From positions 1-21,537 of the IMG/VR virus record IMGVR_UViG_3300042516_003738: 21,537 bases of DNA, one strand, 5' to 3'. The position numbers were made by a program, and so were the translations under genes. Positions 6,800 to 12,698 of this stretch are shown here, in pieces. The notes beneath the pieces were generated by a model. The model had not been told where the DNA came from. It saw only the letters and a list, made by a program, of their open reading frames with translations, and did no database searches. Within the stretch, counting starts at the first letter, position 1. Each line of letters opens with the position of its first letter. This stretch comes from a virus.

Positions 6800-6824
6800 A
6801 AACCCACCGAAAGGTGGGTTTTTT
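6800..6824. terminator. Rho-independent terminator, probably bidirectional
   Basis: AAACCCACC-GAAA-GGTGGGTTT (6800-6821) is a nine-pair stem with a GAAA tetraloop followed by TTT on the plus strand. On the minus strand the same hairpin is followed by TCTTTT. It lies between the convergent ends of gp32 and the minus-strand muramidase-like gene, whose stop codon (6823-6825) is in the T-tract. It should end transcripts from both sides. Confidence 0.9.
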
Positions 6825-8466
6825 ATACTACCGCAGTTTTCAATTTCTTCAACGGGTCAACTGATCTTCCCTGTTTTTTGTTTACTACAACAGTTTGTTG
6901 ATTTACGTTGTTGTTAATAATAACATAAGGCGTTTCACTTTCAACTTCTCGTATTGATAAATCAAAAGAAGCAACATCAATTTTTGATGCATCTCGAACG
7001 CCTGCCACGTTTTGATTAAAATCTGGTATAACTAAACTTGAAGTTTTATCTTTAGGTGTTTTTATATCTTCTTTATTTTCTATTTTTTTTCTCGTTGTTT
7101 CTATCTTTTGTTGTTGTCTGTTTAAAAATTCATTGGCCGATTGACTCATCCAAGGATTATTTAATAAGTTCGTTGGATAACCAGCTTCAGACATTATTTT
7201 TCCAACAGATTCTCTTCCTCGTCCTTCTTTTACAGCTTTAATTAAAGCTTGAGTTCCTCCAGAACCTACAGCCCACGAAGAAGCGAGAGTTTCTGGTGTA
7301 ACAGGAACGCTTAGTCTTTCCAGTTCTAACATTTTACTTCTAGCCAATGACTGAGCAACTATATCTTGCATTGATGCATCAAATTTTCTGTCGAGTATAT
7401 CTGGAATGGTTTTCTTTAGTTTATTAATTTCACCTTTCAATGTGTCAGGCATAAATTGATAAGCACCAACTGCACTTTGTCCTTTTTTTACTTTTTCTCT
7501 TGCAGATTGAAAATCCATAACTTCTCGTATTGACATTTGAGTAAGTGGTTTTCCAGAAAATTCCTCTGCTGTTTGTTGTTTTATAAATCCAGGTTTATCT
7601 TTACCGTAAGCAAACTCTAGTTTACCTTCTTTATTTTTTCTTTCACCAAAAGATATATTATAGTTTTGTCCCGATTCGAATCTATACATAGATTTTAAAA
7701 CTAAATCGATGTCGGAAGTTGATAATTTTCCTGCTGGAAAGTCTATTTTAAAATCTGGTAATTCTCCTGCGTGGGCTTCACTTATGAATAATTTCTTTAT
7801 CGAGTTGTAAAGGTCCGTTGTAAATTCTTCTAGGTAAGATTTTAAATCTACGGTTCTCAATTTGTCTAGTGTTTCTTTTACTTCATCAACAGCCGCTTTA
7901 ATTGCAACTACAACGCCAGCAAAAATGCCACCTATTACCAGAAAATCCAGTAAATTAAAATTAGATTTCTTTTTATTTTTAAGTTCTTCTGGAGAATTTT
8001 TCGAACGTCCCTTTAACTGTTCAAGTTGAGATTCATACATCTGTTCTCGTTTAGAAGCCGCTTTAAAATACATATCAGCTTTTGTTGCAGCATCACCTTT
8101 TTCCAATTTTAAATATTTTACCAGATTTTGTCTGAAAACATTAAAATCTCTATGCAATGCAGGAAGAACAGATAAGTTTTTTGCTGTTAATGTTGTATTA
8201 TATTGTATACTTTCAAATATAGGTTTTACATTTGAAACGTCTAAGGAACCTTTTTCTATAGATTCACCAGAAGTCCTGGTAGCTGAAGTTTTTGCTTTGT
8301 AAGTTTTTAAACCAGGAAAAAGAGCAACTAATAAACCTTTTTGATTTATCAATTGGCGAGGATCAAATTTCTCTTTTAATCGTTCTTTTACACCACCAGC
8401 CAATGACGATACAACGCCTTGACCTGATTGCCTTTTTGAAGAAACTAAATCTCTAAGAGAAGCCAT
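6823..8466 (-). CDS. Virion protein with lysozyme/transglycosylase-like domain
   Basis: A 547-residue protein. Residues 1-157 are a paralogue of the N-terminus of the upstream 648-residue protein (shared FDPRQLINQKGLL, ALFPGLKTY, MHRD/LHRD and TKADM). A single hydrophobic segment follows (about 172-190), then a lysozyme-superfamily region (about 250-430): MYRFESGQNY with likely catalytic Glu264, then SAVGAYQFMPDTLKG (331-345) and SSWAVGSGG. The GAYQF motif is typical of phage muramidases and lytic transglycosylases. The C-terminus is low-complexity and charged. It is probably a tail-borne peptidoglycan hydrolase that helps tail penetration. TAATG overlap with the upstream gene; a start site AGGA lies upstream. 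It may replace the lysozyme domain missing from gp5 here. Confidence 0.75.
   Translation of the reverse strand: MASLRDLVSSKRQSGQGVVSSLAGGVKERLKEKFDPRQLINQKGLLVALFPGLKTYKAKTSATRTSGESIEKGSLDVSNVKPIFESIQYNTTLTAKNLSVLPALHRDFNVFRQNLVKYLKLEKGDAATKADMYFKAASKREQMYESQLEQLKGRSKNSPEELKNKKKSNFNLLDFLVIGGIFAGVVVAIKAAVDEVKETLDKLRTVDLKSYLEEFTTDLYNSIKKLFISEAHAGELPDFKIDFPAGKLSTSDIDLVLKSMYRFESGQNYNISFGERKNKEGKLEFAYGKDKPGFIKQQTAEEFSGKPLTQMSIREVMDFQSAREKVKKGQSAVGAYQFMPDTLKGEINKLKKTIPDILDRKFDASMQDIVAQSLARSKMLELERLSVPVTPETLASSWAVGSGGTQALIKAVKEGRGRESVGKIMSEAGYPTNLLNNPWMSQSANEFLNRQQQKIETTRKKIENKEDIKTPKDKTSSLVIPDFNQNVAGVRDASKIDVASFDLSIREVESETPYVIINNNVNQQTVVVNKKQGRSVDPLKKLKTAVV
8335..8364. repeat. 30-bp identical repeat, copy 1 (paralogous N-terminal module)
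   Basis: This 30-base stretch, coding for part of the DPRQLINQKG segment, is identical to 10254-10283 in the neighbouring gene. A second identical block of 20 bases is at 8300-8319 and 10219-10238. The two genes share a duplicated 5' module. Confidence 0.9.
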
Positions 8467-10412
8467 TATTTTATTCCTATAATTGAGGTATCTCCAAGAT
8501 TTTCAAAATAATCCGTATTCCATGCTGGCGCAACTTCTTCACCTGAAGAAACTGTATCTTTGTTACTCGAATTATTTGTAATGACTTGAACGTTAGTTTT
8601 CGATTCGGTGGTTCTTTGTTTATTCGACGAAGTGAAATCTTCTATTCGCTTAGTCAAAGTTTGTCTAGATTCGTCTAGTAAGTTTAATCCTTGAGATTTT
8701 AGTTCATCAAATTTAAACTGGTCTGTTAATTTACTAAGTCTTTTTTCTACATCAGGCATATATGATGATGGCAGATTTTTAATAAAATCGGTACCTAACA
8801 TTTCTTCTAAAGCATCGTCGGATATTGAATCAAACATAGTTCTAGCTTGCAATTTATCTTTTACAGATTCTAAACCATTTTTTAATAAATCATATTCTTT
8901 ATAGTCTTTATTATATTGTTCATTAAAAAGTTTTAACGATTTCTCTGAAATATCCGCCTTTATTGGTTCTATTTGAGAAATTAAAAGATCAATTAAATTT
9001 CTATTTGGTTTTGATTGTTTCGATTCTTCAGATAGTCTTTCCATTAAAACTTCATAAAGTTTAATTTGTTTACCAAAATGTTTAGCCTCAGAATCAGATA
9101 ATAATAGTGTTAGCGGTTCTTTAAATCCTGGAATGGGCACACCATAAATTTTTGCTGGTCCTTTACCATTATTATATAACTTGTATGCCGCATTATTGAA
9201 TATGGGTTCAATATAACCATGAGTATCATCTAGTCTTTGATTAAAAAGAGATTCATCATATGCTAACGGTTGAGCTCTAACTGGTTTGCTCATTCCCATT
9301 GCTTCACTGGTTGCATTTTTAGATAAGATACCAGATTTTTTTAATTCTTGGAACTCAGTTTCACTAAACTGATATGGCAAATAGGATCTTCTTTTGTCTG
9401 ATGTTTTTTGATTTTCTTCAAATCTTTTGGCGGATTCTCGAATATCTTCCATAGAAGATTCTTTTGATAATGGAGTTTCCGCAAAACTACTTTCTCGGAA
9501 TTTTTTTGCGAAATATTCTAATCCAAATGTTGTTGCAAAAACACCCATTAAGTAACCAGCTAATCTAACTAGTCCTTTTTTACTGAATAATAGAGAAAAT
9601 ACTCCACCTATAGCTCCCCTGATTATAGTGGTAGCCAAAACTCTCATAAAACTTGTTTTGAAGAAATCTATAAAAAAATCTTTAATTATGTTACCTAATA
9701 ATTTAAAGGGTGATAATAACAAAGATAATGCTTTTCCTATAACATCAATGACAACCTCTGCTAATAATTTAAAAGCACCAAATATGGCCTTACCTAAATC
9801 TAAAATTGCACTAACAATACTTTTAAGTCCATTAATAATAGTTGAAAATATTTTTCCTAGAAATCCTAATATACCTTTAGATTTCTTCTTATCTTCTTCG
9901 TCTTTTTGTTTCTGTAGTTTGTCTTGATTATTTCTAGCCTTCTTTAACTCTCTTTCATACTTTTCTTCTCTTTCTTTTGCATTGACAAAAAACATATCGG
10001 CTTTTGTTCTTGCATCACCACTTTTTAATTTAACCAACTTAACCATGTTTTGTCTTATGACGTTTACATCTCTATGCATAGCAGGAAGAACCATAGTGTT
10101 CTTTGCGGTCATTTTAGTATTGTATGAGATTGTTTCTAAAACAGGTTTAATTTCATCTAAAGACGCAGACTGAATAGAAGATTTGGATAATTTTTCAGCC
10201 GAAGCTGTTTTGGCGGCATAAGTTTTTAAACCAGGAAATAAGGCCGTTAAAAGACCTTTTTGATTTATCAATTGGCGAGGATCGAATTTCTCTTTCAATC
10301 TTTCTTTTAGACCACCAGCGAGAGCGCCAGTAACACCACTACCTTGACTTCTTCGGTAGGCTACAATTTCAGCTAATCTATTTGTAGGAGGTTTACTTTT
10401 TTTAGTTGCCAT
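8466..10412 (-). CDS. Candidate tail tape measure / baseplate hub protein (gp29 position)
   Basis: A 648-residue protein. Residues 1-170 form a module shared with the next gene, ending in a charged helix (KYERELKKARNNQDKLQKQKD-like, about 151-175). Residues 181-300 are a long hydrophobic/amphipathic region (GILGFLGKIF, LLLSPFKLLG, IIRGAIGGVF), as tape measure proteins often have for ejection into the membrane. The rest is helical and charged, with an Asn/Ser-rich end. The position after gp26 and its frameshift product, and a length close to T4 gp29 (590 residues), fit the tape measure; no sequence motif proves it. In T4-like tails the tape measure sets tail length and starts from the hub. The start is preceded by a weak GAGA ribosome binding site, 3 bases after the gp26 extension ends. 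Confidence 0.55.
   Translation of the reverse strand: MATKKSKPPTNRLAEIVAYRRSQGSGVTGALAGGLKERLKEKFDPRQLINQKGLLTALFPGLKTYAAKTASAEKLSKSSIQSASLDEIKPVLETISYNTKMTAKNTMVLPAMHRDVNVIRQNMVKLVKLKSGDARTKADMFFVNAKEREEKYERELKKARNNQDKLQKQKDEEDKKKSKGILGFLGKIFSTIINGLKSIVSAILDLGKAIFGAFKLLAEVVIDVIGKALSLLLSPFKLLGNIIKDFFIDFFKTSFMRVLATTIIRGAIGGVFSLLFSKKGLVRLAGYLMGVFATTFGLEYFAKKFRESSFAETPLSKESSMEDIRESAKRFEENQKTSDKRRSYLPYQFSETEFQELKKSGILSKNATSEAMGMSKPVRAQPLAYDESLFNQRLDDTHGYIEPIFNNAAYKLYNNGKGPAKIYGVPIPGFKEPLTLLLSDSEAKHFGKQIKLYEVLMERLSEESKQSKPNRNLIDLLISQIEPIKADISEKSLKLFNEQYNKDYKEYDLLKNGLESVKDKLQARTMFDSISDDALEEMLGTDFIKNLPSSYMPDVEKRLSKLTDQFKFDELKSQGLNLLDESRQTLTKRIEDFTSSNKQRTTESKTNVQVITNNSSNKDTVSSGEEVAPAWNTDYFENLGDTSIIGIK
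10254..10283. repeat. 30-bp identical repeat, copy 2 (paralogous N-terminal module)
   Basis: Identical to 8335-8364. The conservation at base level, within a longer region of protein similarity, suggests recent duplication or continuing gene conversion between the two neighbouring genes. Confidence 0.9.
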
Positions 10413-10415
10413 TTT

Positions 10416-10610
10416 TTATCTCTTTTGATTTTGTGCGGCTTTTAATCTTTCCGCCTCTTCTTCTAGATATCGCATTAACATATTCACATAGATATCTTTT
10501 TCCCACGGAATCAAATTCTCCAACTCTGTCAAACTATATTTGTGGTGTTGCATTAGAGCAAAATTGGTATGATAATGATTCTGTAGGTTGTCATGACCAA
10601 AAATTATTCG
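10416..10610 (-). CDS. -1 frameshift extension of gp26 (64 aa), tail/hub assembly chaperone-like
   Basis: After the slippery T-TTT-TTC near the gp26 end, the -1 frame is open from CGA at 10610 to TAA at 10418-10416. It encodes 64 residues beginning RIIFGHDNLQNHYHTNFALM, then HHKYSLTELENLIPWEKDIY and V-N-M-L-M-R-Y-L-E-E-E. The only ATG before the conserved part (10553) has no ribosome binding site, and the sequence before it still reads as sensible protein, so expression as a gp26 fusion of about 305 residues is the better model. The 'LIPWEKDIYVxML' type motif is, from memory, typical of small proteins in the gp26/gp51 region and of tail assembly chaperones made by frameshifting in other phages. 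It ends 3 bases before the tape-measure candidate. Confidence 0.65.
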   Translation of the reverse strand, partial: RIIFGHDNLQNHYHTNFALMQHHKYSLTELENLIPWEKDIYVNMLMRYLEEEAERLKAAQNQKR

Positions 10611-11332
10611 AAAAAACTTTGTAGACCTTCAAGTTCAATGTTTTCATGATAACCACATTTCTTACACTCAAAATCAACTTTCTTTTTAAGTTTTGGCATA
10701 GTATCAAAGAATGTTTTTATTTTTTCCAAATCTTTTGATTGTAAAGAATCTAAAAATTCCATAAGTTCTTCGTTTGTTGAATCTTTAGCATAGTAAATAT
10801 TATCTTTATCATAAATGTAATCAATACAACTAATGATTAGATCCAATACTACATTAAAATCATCAACTTCAGTATTGTCTTTGATTAGTCCTATTTTAGG
10901 ATATTTCATGACAATACCTAATTCGTTTGTAATTTCTATTTTATTGGTATGTTCTGAATTTCTTGTAGGTTCAACTTCTAAAATATTAAGTTGCATTTCA
11001 ACCGGACTATTACATTTTTTAGGTTCTTCTTCGGTACCAACATCATTATTGCAACGATAACGAAGATTTACAATTTCGCCAATTGAACGAGCTCTAAGAT
11101 TTAAAAATAGATATTCAATGTCAAAGGTTGGTAAATCTCTTATCTCAATATCACTTATAACGCAATTATTTAAAACTTGTATGATTGTGTCTACTGAATA
11201 TTTTGCATCATCCGATTCATAAGCCATTAGAAATAATTTTTCTTCCTTTACTGTGAAAGGTCTAAATCTTACTGACTCTCCAGAAGAAGGTAATTTTATT
11301 TCATATACTGGAACATCAATTTTAGGTAACAT
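10604..11332 (-). CDS. 26: Baseplate hub protein gp26
   Basis: A 242-residue protein of the T4 gp26 family (T4 gp26: 208 residues). It starts MLPKIDVPVYEIKLPSSGE, typical of the family, followed by FRPFTVKEEKLFLMA. Four cysteines, Cys94 and Cys107 plus C223-x-x-C226 (FECKKCGYHE), probably bind zinc. In T4, gp26 takes part in baseplate hub assembly. GGAG precedes the ATG. The gene ends at TAA 10606-10604, just after a slippery heptamer that would send some ribosomes into the -1 frame to make a longer product. It follows the gp54-like gene with an 11-base gap. Confidence 0.8.
   Translation of the reverse strand: MLPKIDVPVYEIKLPSSGESVRFRPFTVKEEKLFLMAYESDDAKYSVDTIIQVLNNCVISDIEIRDLPTFDIEYLFLNLRARSIGEIVNLRYRCNNDVGTEEEPKKCNSPVEMQLNILEVEPTRNSEHTNKIEITNELGIVMKYPKIGLIKDNTEVDDFNVVLDLIISCIDYIYDKDNIYYAKDSTNEELMEFLDSLQSKDLEKIKTFFDTMPKLKKKVDFECKKCGYHENIELEGLQSFFE
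10610..10616 (-). promoter_or_regulatory. Slippery heptamer T-TTT-TTC for -1 ribosomal frameshifting
   Basis: In the gp26 frame the codons read AGT TTT TTC GAA TAA, so T TTT TTC fits the X-XXY-YYZ slippery pattern in frame. The stop lies one codon downstream, and the -1 frame then stays open for 64 codons. No stimulatory hairpin was worked out. Confidence 0.6.
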
Positions 11333-11343
11333 AGTATCTCCAT

Positions 11344-12108
11344 TTAAAATCTAAAGAAATTTTCAAATAATTTTGTGCTTTTTGCTCCGAAGTAGGACGC
11401 TGCTGCTTCTCCAAGGTCTGTATAACCTTCATAGATAGGTTCATATTTTTGATATGCAAATTGAACAGTCAATCTATGATAACCATCATCACCCCAAGCC
11501 AAAGGCATTGCAGCAACACCTATTGGAAATGCATCTATTAATTTCACTGCATAAATTTGTTTAATAAAATCATCATATTGAAGAATTTGTATATTACTCA
11601 TGTAACGAGTTTCTTCATCATGAGAGAATCTTAAATTATTTGTTATTGGATTCATTATAGAACTAATCCAAGAATCAAATAATTTTCTTTCATAGAAATC
11701 ATTTGTACAAATAAATCCTAAACTTATATCATTGTATTGTTTTTGATAAGGAACTTTAAACGAAGGTCCATAAATTTTGACATCAGCTGTTTGTAATGTT
11801 TTTCCTGGTAATTCTGCTGTTTCACATTGTAACGATAGATATCTTGTTATGTTGGGATTCGACCCTCTTCTTGGGTCTCCAGATGGCCAAGATTTTCCCG
11901 TTCTTTCATATGTTGTTGCACGACTAACCCAATCAGTAACATCGGTAACTAATGTATTTGGTAAGTTTAATAATTGTTCTAATACGTTACTGTCGATGTT
12001 ACCGTCAATATATCTTGGAATAGGAAGAATCATTTTAAATCTGTTGGGTCTAGCCAAATCACCTTTAGATTTTATGTGTGATAGAAATAAAGTTGGTGTA
12101 AAAGACAT
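11344..12108 (-). CDS. 54: Baseplate tail tube initiator, gp54-like (tail-tube fold)
   Basis: A 254-residue protein. I use the ATG at 12108 rather than the upstream one at 12207, because AAAGGA lies 8 bases before it and it overlaps the previous stop as TAATG; the upstream extension lies wholly within the preceding gene. The protein begins MSFTPTLFLSHIKSKGDLAR and contains the tube-like core: RPNRFKMILP, LQCETAELPGKT, then a late AVKLIDAFPIGVAAMPLAWG and LTVQFAYQKYEP. These are features of the T4 gp19/gp54 tail-tube family. In T4, gp54 (320 residues) starts tube polymerisation on the gp48 cap of the baseplate. Tail tube gp19 itself is an alternative, but the neighbours gp26 and gp48 favour gp54. 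Confidence 0.7.
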   Translation of the reverse strand: MSFTPTLFLSHIKSKGDLARPNRFKMILPIPRYIDGNIDSNVLEQLLNLPNTLVTDVTDWVSRATTYERTGKSWPSGDPRRGSNPNITRYLSLQCETAELPGKTLQTADVKIYGPSFKVPYQKQYNDISLGFICTNDFYERKLFDSWISSIMNPITNNLRFSHDEETRYMSNIQILQYDDFIKQIYAVKLIDAFPIGVAAMPLAWGDDGYHRLTVQFAYQKYEPIYEGYTDLGEAAASYFGAKSTKLFENFFRF

Positions 12109-12698
12109 TAAAATAATTCCTTTGAATCTTGAAATACTAGTGATTTTGAAATTGGTTTTTTTTCTGAAGTGAAACTTTCTACTGGTAACAAAGCTGCAAT
12201 ATCCCACTCATCCGCACTAATCTCCAAAAATCTAGATTGTATTTGAGTAAATAGATAGCGTTTTATGCAGGCATTTTGTTCAAAAATTTTAGATGCTGAC
12301 TTTAGTGTTTGATAGGATAACCTAAGTTTTGTAGTGTTATCAAACTTGTCGTTCGTTGCATAGGAACTTAGTTTATCAAGTAATATTAATCTTTGTTTTG
12401 GATGAATATAGTGAATATTCAATCCTAAAAATCCATCGTTATAGGGTTCTATTGGCAAAACTAAAGGAAAGGTATCATAGTACTTCATTTTGTCTTTAGT
12501 CTTAGGATCATAAACGAAAAAATAAAGTCTGCCAACAATACTTCTTTCACGAAGTCTTGCCATGTCATTCATCAAACTTGCTTTAGTGGGTTTTAAGTTT
12601 GCGACTTTCGTGCGTAACCAATCTCTAGATTCTCTGGACCTAGAGGCGAAACCTTCTTTTTGTAGTGAAGCTTGAATACGGTCGATTAGATATGCCAT
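12108..12698 (-). CDS. Conserved T4-like virion protein (possibly DNA end protector gp2)
   Basis: A 196-residue protein with a distinctive core: VGRLYFFVYDPKTKDKMKYY, DTFPLVLPIEPYNDGFLGLN and HYIHPKQRLILLDKLSSYA, then DEWDIAALLPVESF near the C-terminus. I recognise this as a widely conserved structural gene of aquatic T4-like phages, but its T4 counterpart is uncertain. Placement next to gp4 recalls T4 genes 2 and 4, so a gp2 role (protecting DNA ends, joining head to tail) is possible. A perfect late box TATAAATA on the minus strand ends four bases before the ATG and there is no ribosome binding site, so a leaderless late transcript is possible. The stop overlaps the gp54-like ATG. Confidence 0.65.
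   Translation of the reverse strand: MAYLIDRIQASLQKEGFASRSRESRDWLRTKVANLKPTKASLMNDMARLRERSIVGRLYFFVYDPKTKDKMKYYDTFPLVLPIEPYNDGFLGLNIHYIHPKQRLILLDKLSSYATNDKFDNTTKLRLSYQTLKSASKIFEQNACIKRYLFTQIQSRFLEISADEWDIAALLPVESFTSEKKPISKSLVFQDSKELF

Follow-up and report, generated by a model that had tools for sequence, protein, structure and literature searches.

In bacteriophage lambda the tail assembly chaperone is produced in a short and a long form (G and GT) by a -1 shift at the slip site G GGA AAG, directly before the tape measure gene. For the Vandenendeviridae, a tail assembly chaperone (TAC) locus with a conserved -1 shift at a T run is described in the excerpted sections of PMC12846349, which credit similar sites in T4-like TAC-N genes to Vladimirov et al. 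2022. The relevant passage of the PRFect paper (PMC10885494) cites the same study for T4-like phages in which a short gene is accompanied by a long, fused one. The study itself (Vladimirov, Gautam & Davidson 2022, Virology 566:9-15), on TAC-N and TAC-NC of T4-like phages, is represented here by the citing passages in PMC12846349 and PMC10885494, and with it known in that form the literature search found no paper devoted to the T4-like gp26-gp51 frameshift. In the pertinent section of a T4 tail review, gp26 and gp51 are listed as hub assembly chaperones (PMC3004832). As far as these passages go, both the frameshift in T4-like phages and the two-gene solution of T4 are already in print, so that the locus described below adds one more case, ordinary for tailed phages.

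The window, i.e., the whole stretch of DNA analysed, is a 21.5-kb virus record fragment (positions 1 to 21,537 of IMGVR_UViG_3300042516_003738) with T4-like genes for head closure, DNA end protector, tail tube, gp26 and tail tube cap. Its gp26 locus very probably gives rise to two forms of a tail assembly chaperone, the long one arising by predicted -1 slippage on T TTT TTC. The features of the locus are given in Table 1. The locus lies between a tail tube ORF upstream of gp26 (phrog_45, E 1.7e-39) and the 648-aa ORF, which showed a weak match to the tape measure family phrog_58 (E 1.4e-4).

Table 1. Positions of the features of the gp26 locus in the window
Feature	Position	Strand	Basis
gp26-like ORF, short form (TAC-N), 242 aa	11332..10604	minus	PF12322, phrog_150, fold match 2ob9
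Slippery heptamer T TTT TTC, zero frame	10616..10610	minus	kept as TTTTTTC/TTTTTTT in 79/80 loci
Sense codon GAA between heptamer and stop	10609..10607	minus	sequence read
Zero-frame stop TAA, one sense codon past heptamer	10606..10604	minus	sequence read
-1 frame extension, 64 codons + stop, gp51 C-terminal domain (by family match)	10610..10416	minus	phrog_634, pN/pS
-1 frame stop TAA	10418..10416	minus	sequence read
Predicted frameshift fusion, 305 aa, long form (TAC-NC)	11332..10416	minus	T4 gp51-like domain order
GAAGG, possible Shine-Dalgarno-like stimulator, 9 bases upstream of heptamer	10630..10626	minus	analogy with dnaX
648-aa ORF, tape measure candidate, likely chaperone client	8466..10412	minus	phrog_58 weak match, position
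547-aa ORF, N-terminal ~200 residues common to tape measure candidate	6823..8466	minus	53% identity, E 6e-58

The zero frame of the gp26 ORF ends with AGT TTT TTC GAA TAA. The first-pass annotation had placed a T-TTT-TTC in frame one codon before this stop, followed by a 64-codon -1 frame that ends 3 bases short of the tape measure candidate, and both were borne out at the positions listed in Table 1, on the minus strand, which that annotation had left unstated. The extension reads RIIFGHDNLQ...NQKR, and its stop is separated by the spacer AAA from the ATG of the next ORF at 10412. The 26 ORFs of the window (6263 codons) contained 10 in-frame six-T heptamers. Nine of these led into -1 frames of 2-30 codons that all ended inside their own gene, and the heptamer at the gp26 end was the sole one whose -1 frame passed a gene end. 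In shuffled window sequence, open runs of at least 64 codons started at 0.6% of positions. A chance origin is untenable because relatives conserve both the heptamer and the -1 frame.

For this comparison the best 80 of 598 loci found in a gp26 search of IMG/VR were taken, which together with the window gave 81 loci. The end of gp26 was readable in 80 of them (79 uncultivated relatives and the window), while L021 was left out as its contig ends inside gp26. An in-frame heptamer was present at the gp26 end in 79 of these 80 loci (75 TTTTTTC, 4 TTTTTTT; best 80 of 598 plus the window), a count given without a probability as the loci share ancestry, and in 78 of the 80 it stood exactly one sense codon before the stop. 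The -1 frame carried the extension in 78 of the 81 loci. The remaining three were L019, which has an internal deletion in gp26, and L078 and L021, whose contigs end; that of L078 ends too early and gave no extension match. In L019 (positions 400-700) the frame relation is lost: gp26 lacks about 67 residues, so that the T run and the extension follow directly on about residue 174, either through a real deletion or perhaps through a misjoined assembly at the T run. Elsewhere in these genes Phe was encoded by TTT 650 times out of 866, and 3646 of 4402 further codons of a comparable type had T as their last base; amino-acid conservation and codon usage alone would therefore not fix the site so strictly.

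The named reference phages gave the same picture, with T TTT TTC, T TTT TTT or T TTT TTG in 18 of 20, the exceptions being CBA120 and Vibrio phage K452. The heptamer was also present in six further named records (ACG-2014j, metaG-MbCM1, Syn30, S-ShM2, ACG-2014f and P-HM2), in the distant loci L121 and L122, and in the KVP40-type loci L104 and L105 (100% and 88% identity to the KVP40 query). Scans with the gp26 of KVP40 and of DLP_6 yielded 2 loci each, and a scan with a mixed gp26 alignment gave no usable pattern. The alignment of related gp26 loci, suggested in the first-pass annotation as a check, thus found slippery site and -1 frame both conserved. The arrangement that had been named there as contrary, a small gene with its own start and no slippery site, occurred only in Vibrio phage K452 and not in the close relatives.

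The same counts bear on the explanation that sequencing or assembly went wrong at the T run, the frame change being an artefact and the true gene a continuous gp26-gp51C fusion. Homopolymer runs are error-prone, and T4 gp51 shows that a continuous fusion can exist. Across 79 of 80 loci, which stem from different samples, the frame relation with a zero-frame stop was nevertheless the same, and the frame relation recurred in 18 of 20 named reference phages, which refutes such an error for the family as a whole. Among the 81 loci none reads from gp26 into the extension in one frame, and an error in the window is extremely improbable.

A different gp26 end was observed in the kuttervirus loci (L106-L120, 15/15 loci) and CBA120 (L094), which read GAG/GAA ATT TTC ATT TAA. 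A similar extension with the motif MPWHLD is open there in the -1 frame, and neither the canonical heptamer nor an obvious early ATG was present in these 15 loci and CBA120.

The gp26 ORF belongs to the T4 gp26 family according to its matches to PF12322 (E 3.4e-64) and phrog_150 (E 2.1e-69, positions 7-233). The extension alone matched phrog_634, "baseplate hub assembly catalyst" (gp51 family), with an E value of 7.6e-27, and also positions 234-277 of phrog_150, directly past the region covered by the gp26 ORF. Aligned as profiles, the gp26 of the window corresponded to residues 6-185 of T4 gp51 (E 1.1e-5) and the extension to residues 207-244 (hhalign E 8e-5). By these family matches the extension is identified as the C-terminal domain of the T4 gp51 family, an identity that the first-pass annotation had not named. 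T4 gp26 (208 aa) covers positions 14-235 of phrog_150, and T4 gp51 (249 aa) covers positions 13-280 and matches phrog_634 as well, which explains why ORF and extension match adjacent phrog_150 regions. The two T4 proteins also match one another (E 2e-6 across 161 residues). A weak match of residues 32-141 of T4 gp26 (P0002, from L087) to phrog_1140 (gp28, "baseplate hub distal subunit"; E 9.4e-4) was also seen, and this gene block may include gp28 as a third relative.

An AlphaFold model of gp26 had a mean pLDDT of 88. Foldseek searches with this model gave weak scores, the top hit being the HK97 tail assembly chaperone 2ob9 (E 0.39, probability 0.75). When 470 of the Foldseek chains were aligned with VIA-align, 2ob9, 3klu and 3fgx all reached a Z score of 7.5 over 83-85 residues (2ob9 over 83 residues of the N-terminal part of gp26), a value in the range below 8 in which a match can be a common arrangement. 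They were followed by 5ir0 with 5.7 and then an unrelated chain with 2.9. Among these structure records a tail chaperone is named in 2ob9 only; 3klu and 3fgx presumably originate from prophage tail regions. The 2ob9 match was accepted because the top hit has the function suggested by gene order and frameshift, and the N-terminal domain of gp26 has a chaperone-like fold. The remainder of gp26 (about residues 87-237) showed a weak zinc-ribbon-like match (NrdR, Z 2.8), and the match to Pfam Zn_ribbon_RPB9 (E 0.0065) was below the cut-off of that family. The model of the 64-residue extension was helical with a mean pLDDT of 78. A PDB sequence search gave chance matches only (best E 0.069), and NCBIfam yielded no family for the six proteins searched.

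Selection on the extension was estimated from 71 loci with at least 50 extension codons, using 475 pooled pairs of 72-95% identity. In the -1 frame pN/pS was 0.23 for extension residues 3-19 and 0.16 for residues 20-58, while the zero and +1 frames of the same DNA gave 1.19 and 2.28 (755 gap-free pairs, a different pair set); the pairs share ancestry, and these values are descriptions, not tests. Judged by these ratios, it is only in the -1 frame that the extension evolves as a protein. An untranslated remnant of gp51, next to a T run kept by the need for Phe-Phe in an AT-rich genome, would agree with the G+C content of 32% and with the conserved Phe-Phe, and it can practically be discounted in view of the purifying selection confined to the -1 frame. 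T4-type gp26 genes, which have a separate long-form gene, moreover mostly keep Phe-Phe with TTC TTT after GAG or GAA, or with other codons; their ends have similar amino acids, often EFF, and the slip heptamer was found in none of 10 complete cases (L125 is cut). Two Rhizobium phages, RL2RES and RHph_N34, have TTG (Leu) in place of the second Phe codon, so that the T run stays and the amino acid differs.

The extension could also be a separate small gene, started after the gp26 stop or at the internal ATG at 10553 (45 codons) and yielding a free gp51-like peptide. Starts of this kind are annotated in P-TIM40, KVP40 and P-SSM2; an ATG was present somewhere before residue 20 of the -1 frame in 58 of the 71 loci, at residue 4 in 38 of them, and Vibrio phage K452 has TAATG and a -1 extension with no slip site. 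For the window this explanation is very unlikely. Its first 19 extension codons contain no ATG, GTG or TTG, yet the codons before 10553, which is residue 20, are protein-selected across the family, and this speaks against a true start at that ATG. Seven of the other 70 loci also had none of these codons before residue 20, and in two of them (L008 and L070) residue 20 is Ile, not Met. The heptamer persists even where an ATG is available, as in KVP40, in which it is kept together with an ATG overlapping the stop (GAT TTT TTC GTA TAATG), and five named records leave the extension unannotated. The only ATG codons of the -1 frame in the window are those at 10553, 10481 and 10475, and no convincing ribosome binding site was present in the 22 bases upstream of any of them, which agrees with the earlier claim that none serves an independent start; GGAAAAAG is located in coding sequence, well before the ATG at 10481. 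As an early ATG exists in 58 of 71 loci, a restart after the stop is possible there, and an additional free peptide is a possible product in many relatives, next to the frameshift product preferred here.

A stimulatory RNA structure downstream of the heptamer is not supported, as the folding z values were -0.07 (90 bases) and -1.8 (210 bases) and no consensus pair was found in 20 sequences. The dnaX frameshift has a Shine-Dalgarno-like stimulator upstream of its slip site, and by analogy the GAAGG upstream of the heptamer might pair with the ribosome. The conservation of this motif is inseparable from that of the Glu-Gly codons, and T4 gp26 has Gly at the same place. The lack of support for an RNA structure, together with the kutterviruses, CBA120 and K452, which have a -1 extension but no heptamer, counts against slippage.

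We infer the following course for the slippage, and likewise how efficient it is, what the two forms bind and how they act in assembly. Most ribosomes would stop at 10604 and release the short form. A minority would shift back by one base at the T TTT TTC heptamer, with the P-site UUU and the A-site UUC re-pairing with UUU UUU, and would then read the -1 frame to give the gp26-gp51C fusion. By analogy with lambda gpG and gpGT, the C-terminal domain would bind and hold subunits of the tail tube, and the N-terminal domains would form a coat on the tape measure protein, whose gene comes next; the finished virion would contain neither form.

The genes next to the locus showed two peculiarities. 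The tail tube ORF (11344-12207, beginning with GTG at 12207) and the end-protector ORF (12108-12698), both on the minus strand, have 100 bases in common; a later tail tube start is likely because the family match begins at residue 19. The two ORFs that follow the extension are tandem and share the N-terminal region listed in Table 1. The same sharing was found in L004, S-SSM4, ACG-2014d, S-ShM2, ACG-2014f and P-TIM40 and was absent in P-SSM2 and P-HM2; RN05-S and MA01 gave weak partial matches, their second ORFs being cut. It is a speculative and rather unlikely idea that, in this clade, two tape-measure-like proteins encoded in tandem are both clients of a single chaperone pair tuned by frameshifting. 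If it were true, the two clients would dock through the shared N-terminal module, and their loading into one tail would be set by the ratio between gp26 and gp26-gp51C.

The annotation of 27 named records (P-TIM40 twice) was also inspected, and none has a joined CDS at the gp26-extension junction. In the cyanophages S-SSM4, ACG-2014d, ACG-2014j, metaG-MbCM1 and Syn30, and in CBA120, the extension is not covered by any CDS. The results support a correction in many T4-like records, in which two genes or an unannotated gap would become a short protein and a frameshift fusion.

The likeness to frameshifted chaperones such as lambda G/GT, which the first-pass annotation had drawn, is supported by the conserved site, frame and extension and by the N-terminal chaperone fold. 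It is a likeness of organisation, i.e., two forms via a predicted -1 shift, and gp26 is larger than lambda gpG and has an added domain at about residues 87-237. The TAC locus of Vandenendeviridae and Andersonviridae, as presented in the excerpts of PMC12846349 on Pseudomonas phage Adele, has a proposed -1 shift at the T run GTTTTT near the TAC-N end, and its extension precedes the tape measure gene as in the window. These phage families are other than that of the window, and the likeness is drawn from the description in those excerpts (PMC12846349). The cyanophage (Kyanoviridae) gp26/gp51 loci of P-SSM2, S-SSM4 and S-ShM2 have the same heptamer and the same -1 frame as the window and are likewise placed before large tail ORFs; gp26 is about 34-43% identical among the cyanophage matches listed. 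Many cyanophages have an ATG near the extension start, whereas the window has none. T4 and the window share the same two protein families, and the predicted fusion has the domain order of T4 gp51. In T4, however, gp26 as the short form and gp51 as the long, fused one are two separate, divergent genes, and the gp26 end has no slip site, while in the window both forms would come from one gene with a -1 shift. A DNA search of the record with window positions 10001-10700 gave no second copy of the extension within this 21.5-kb fragment. Phages that make two chaperone forms by slippage can thus be set against T4 with its two genes in a clean comparison.
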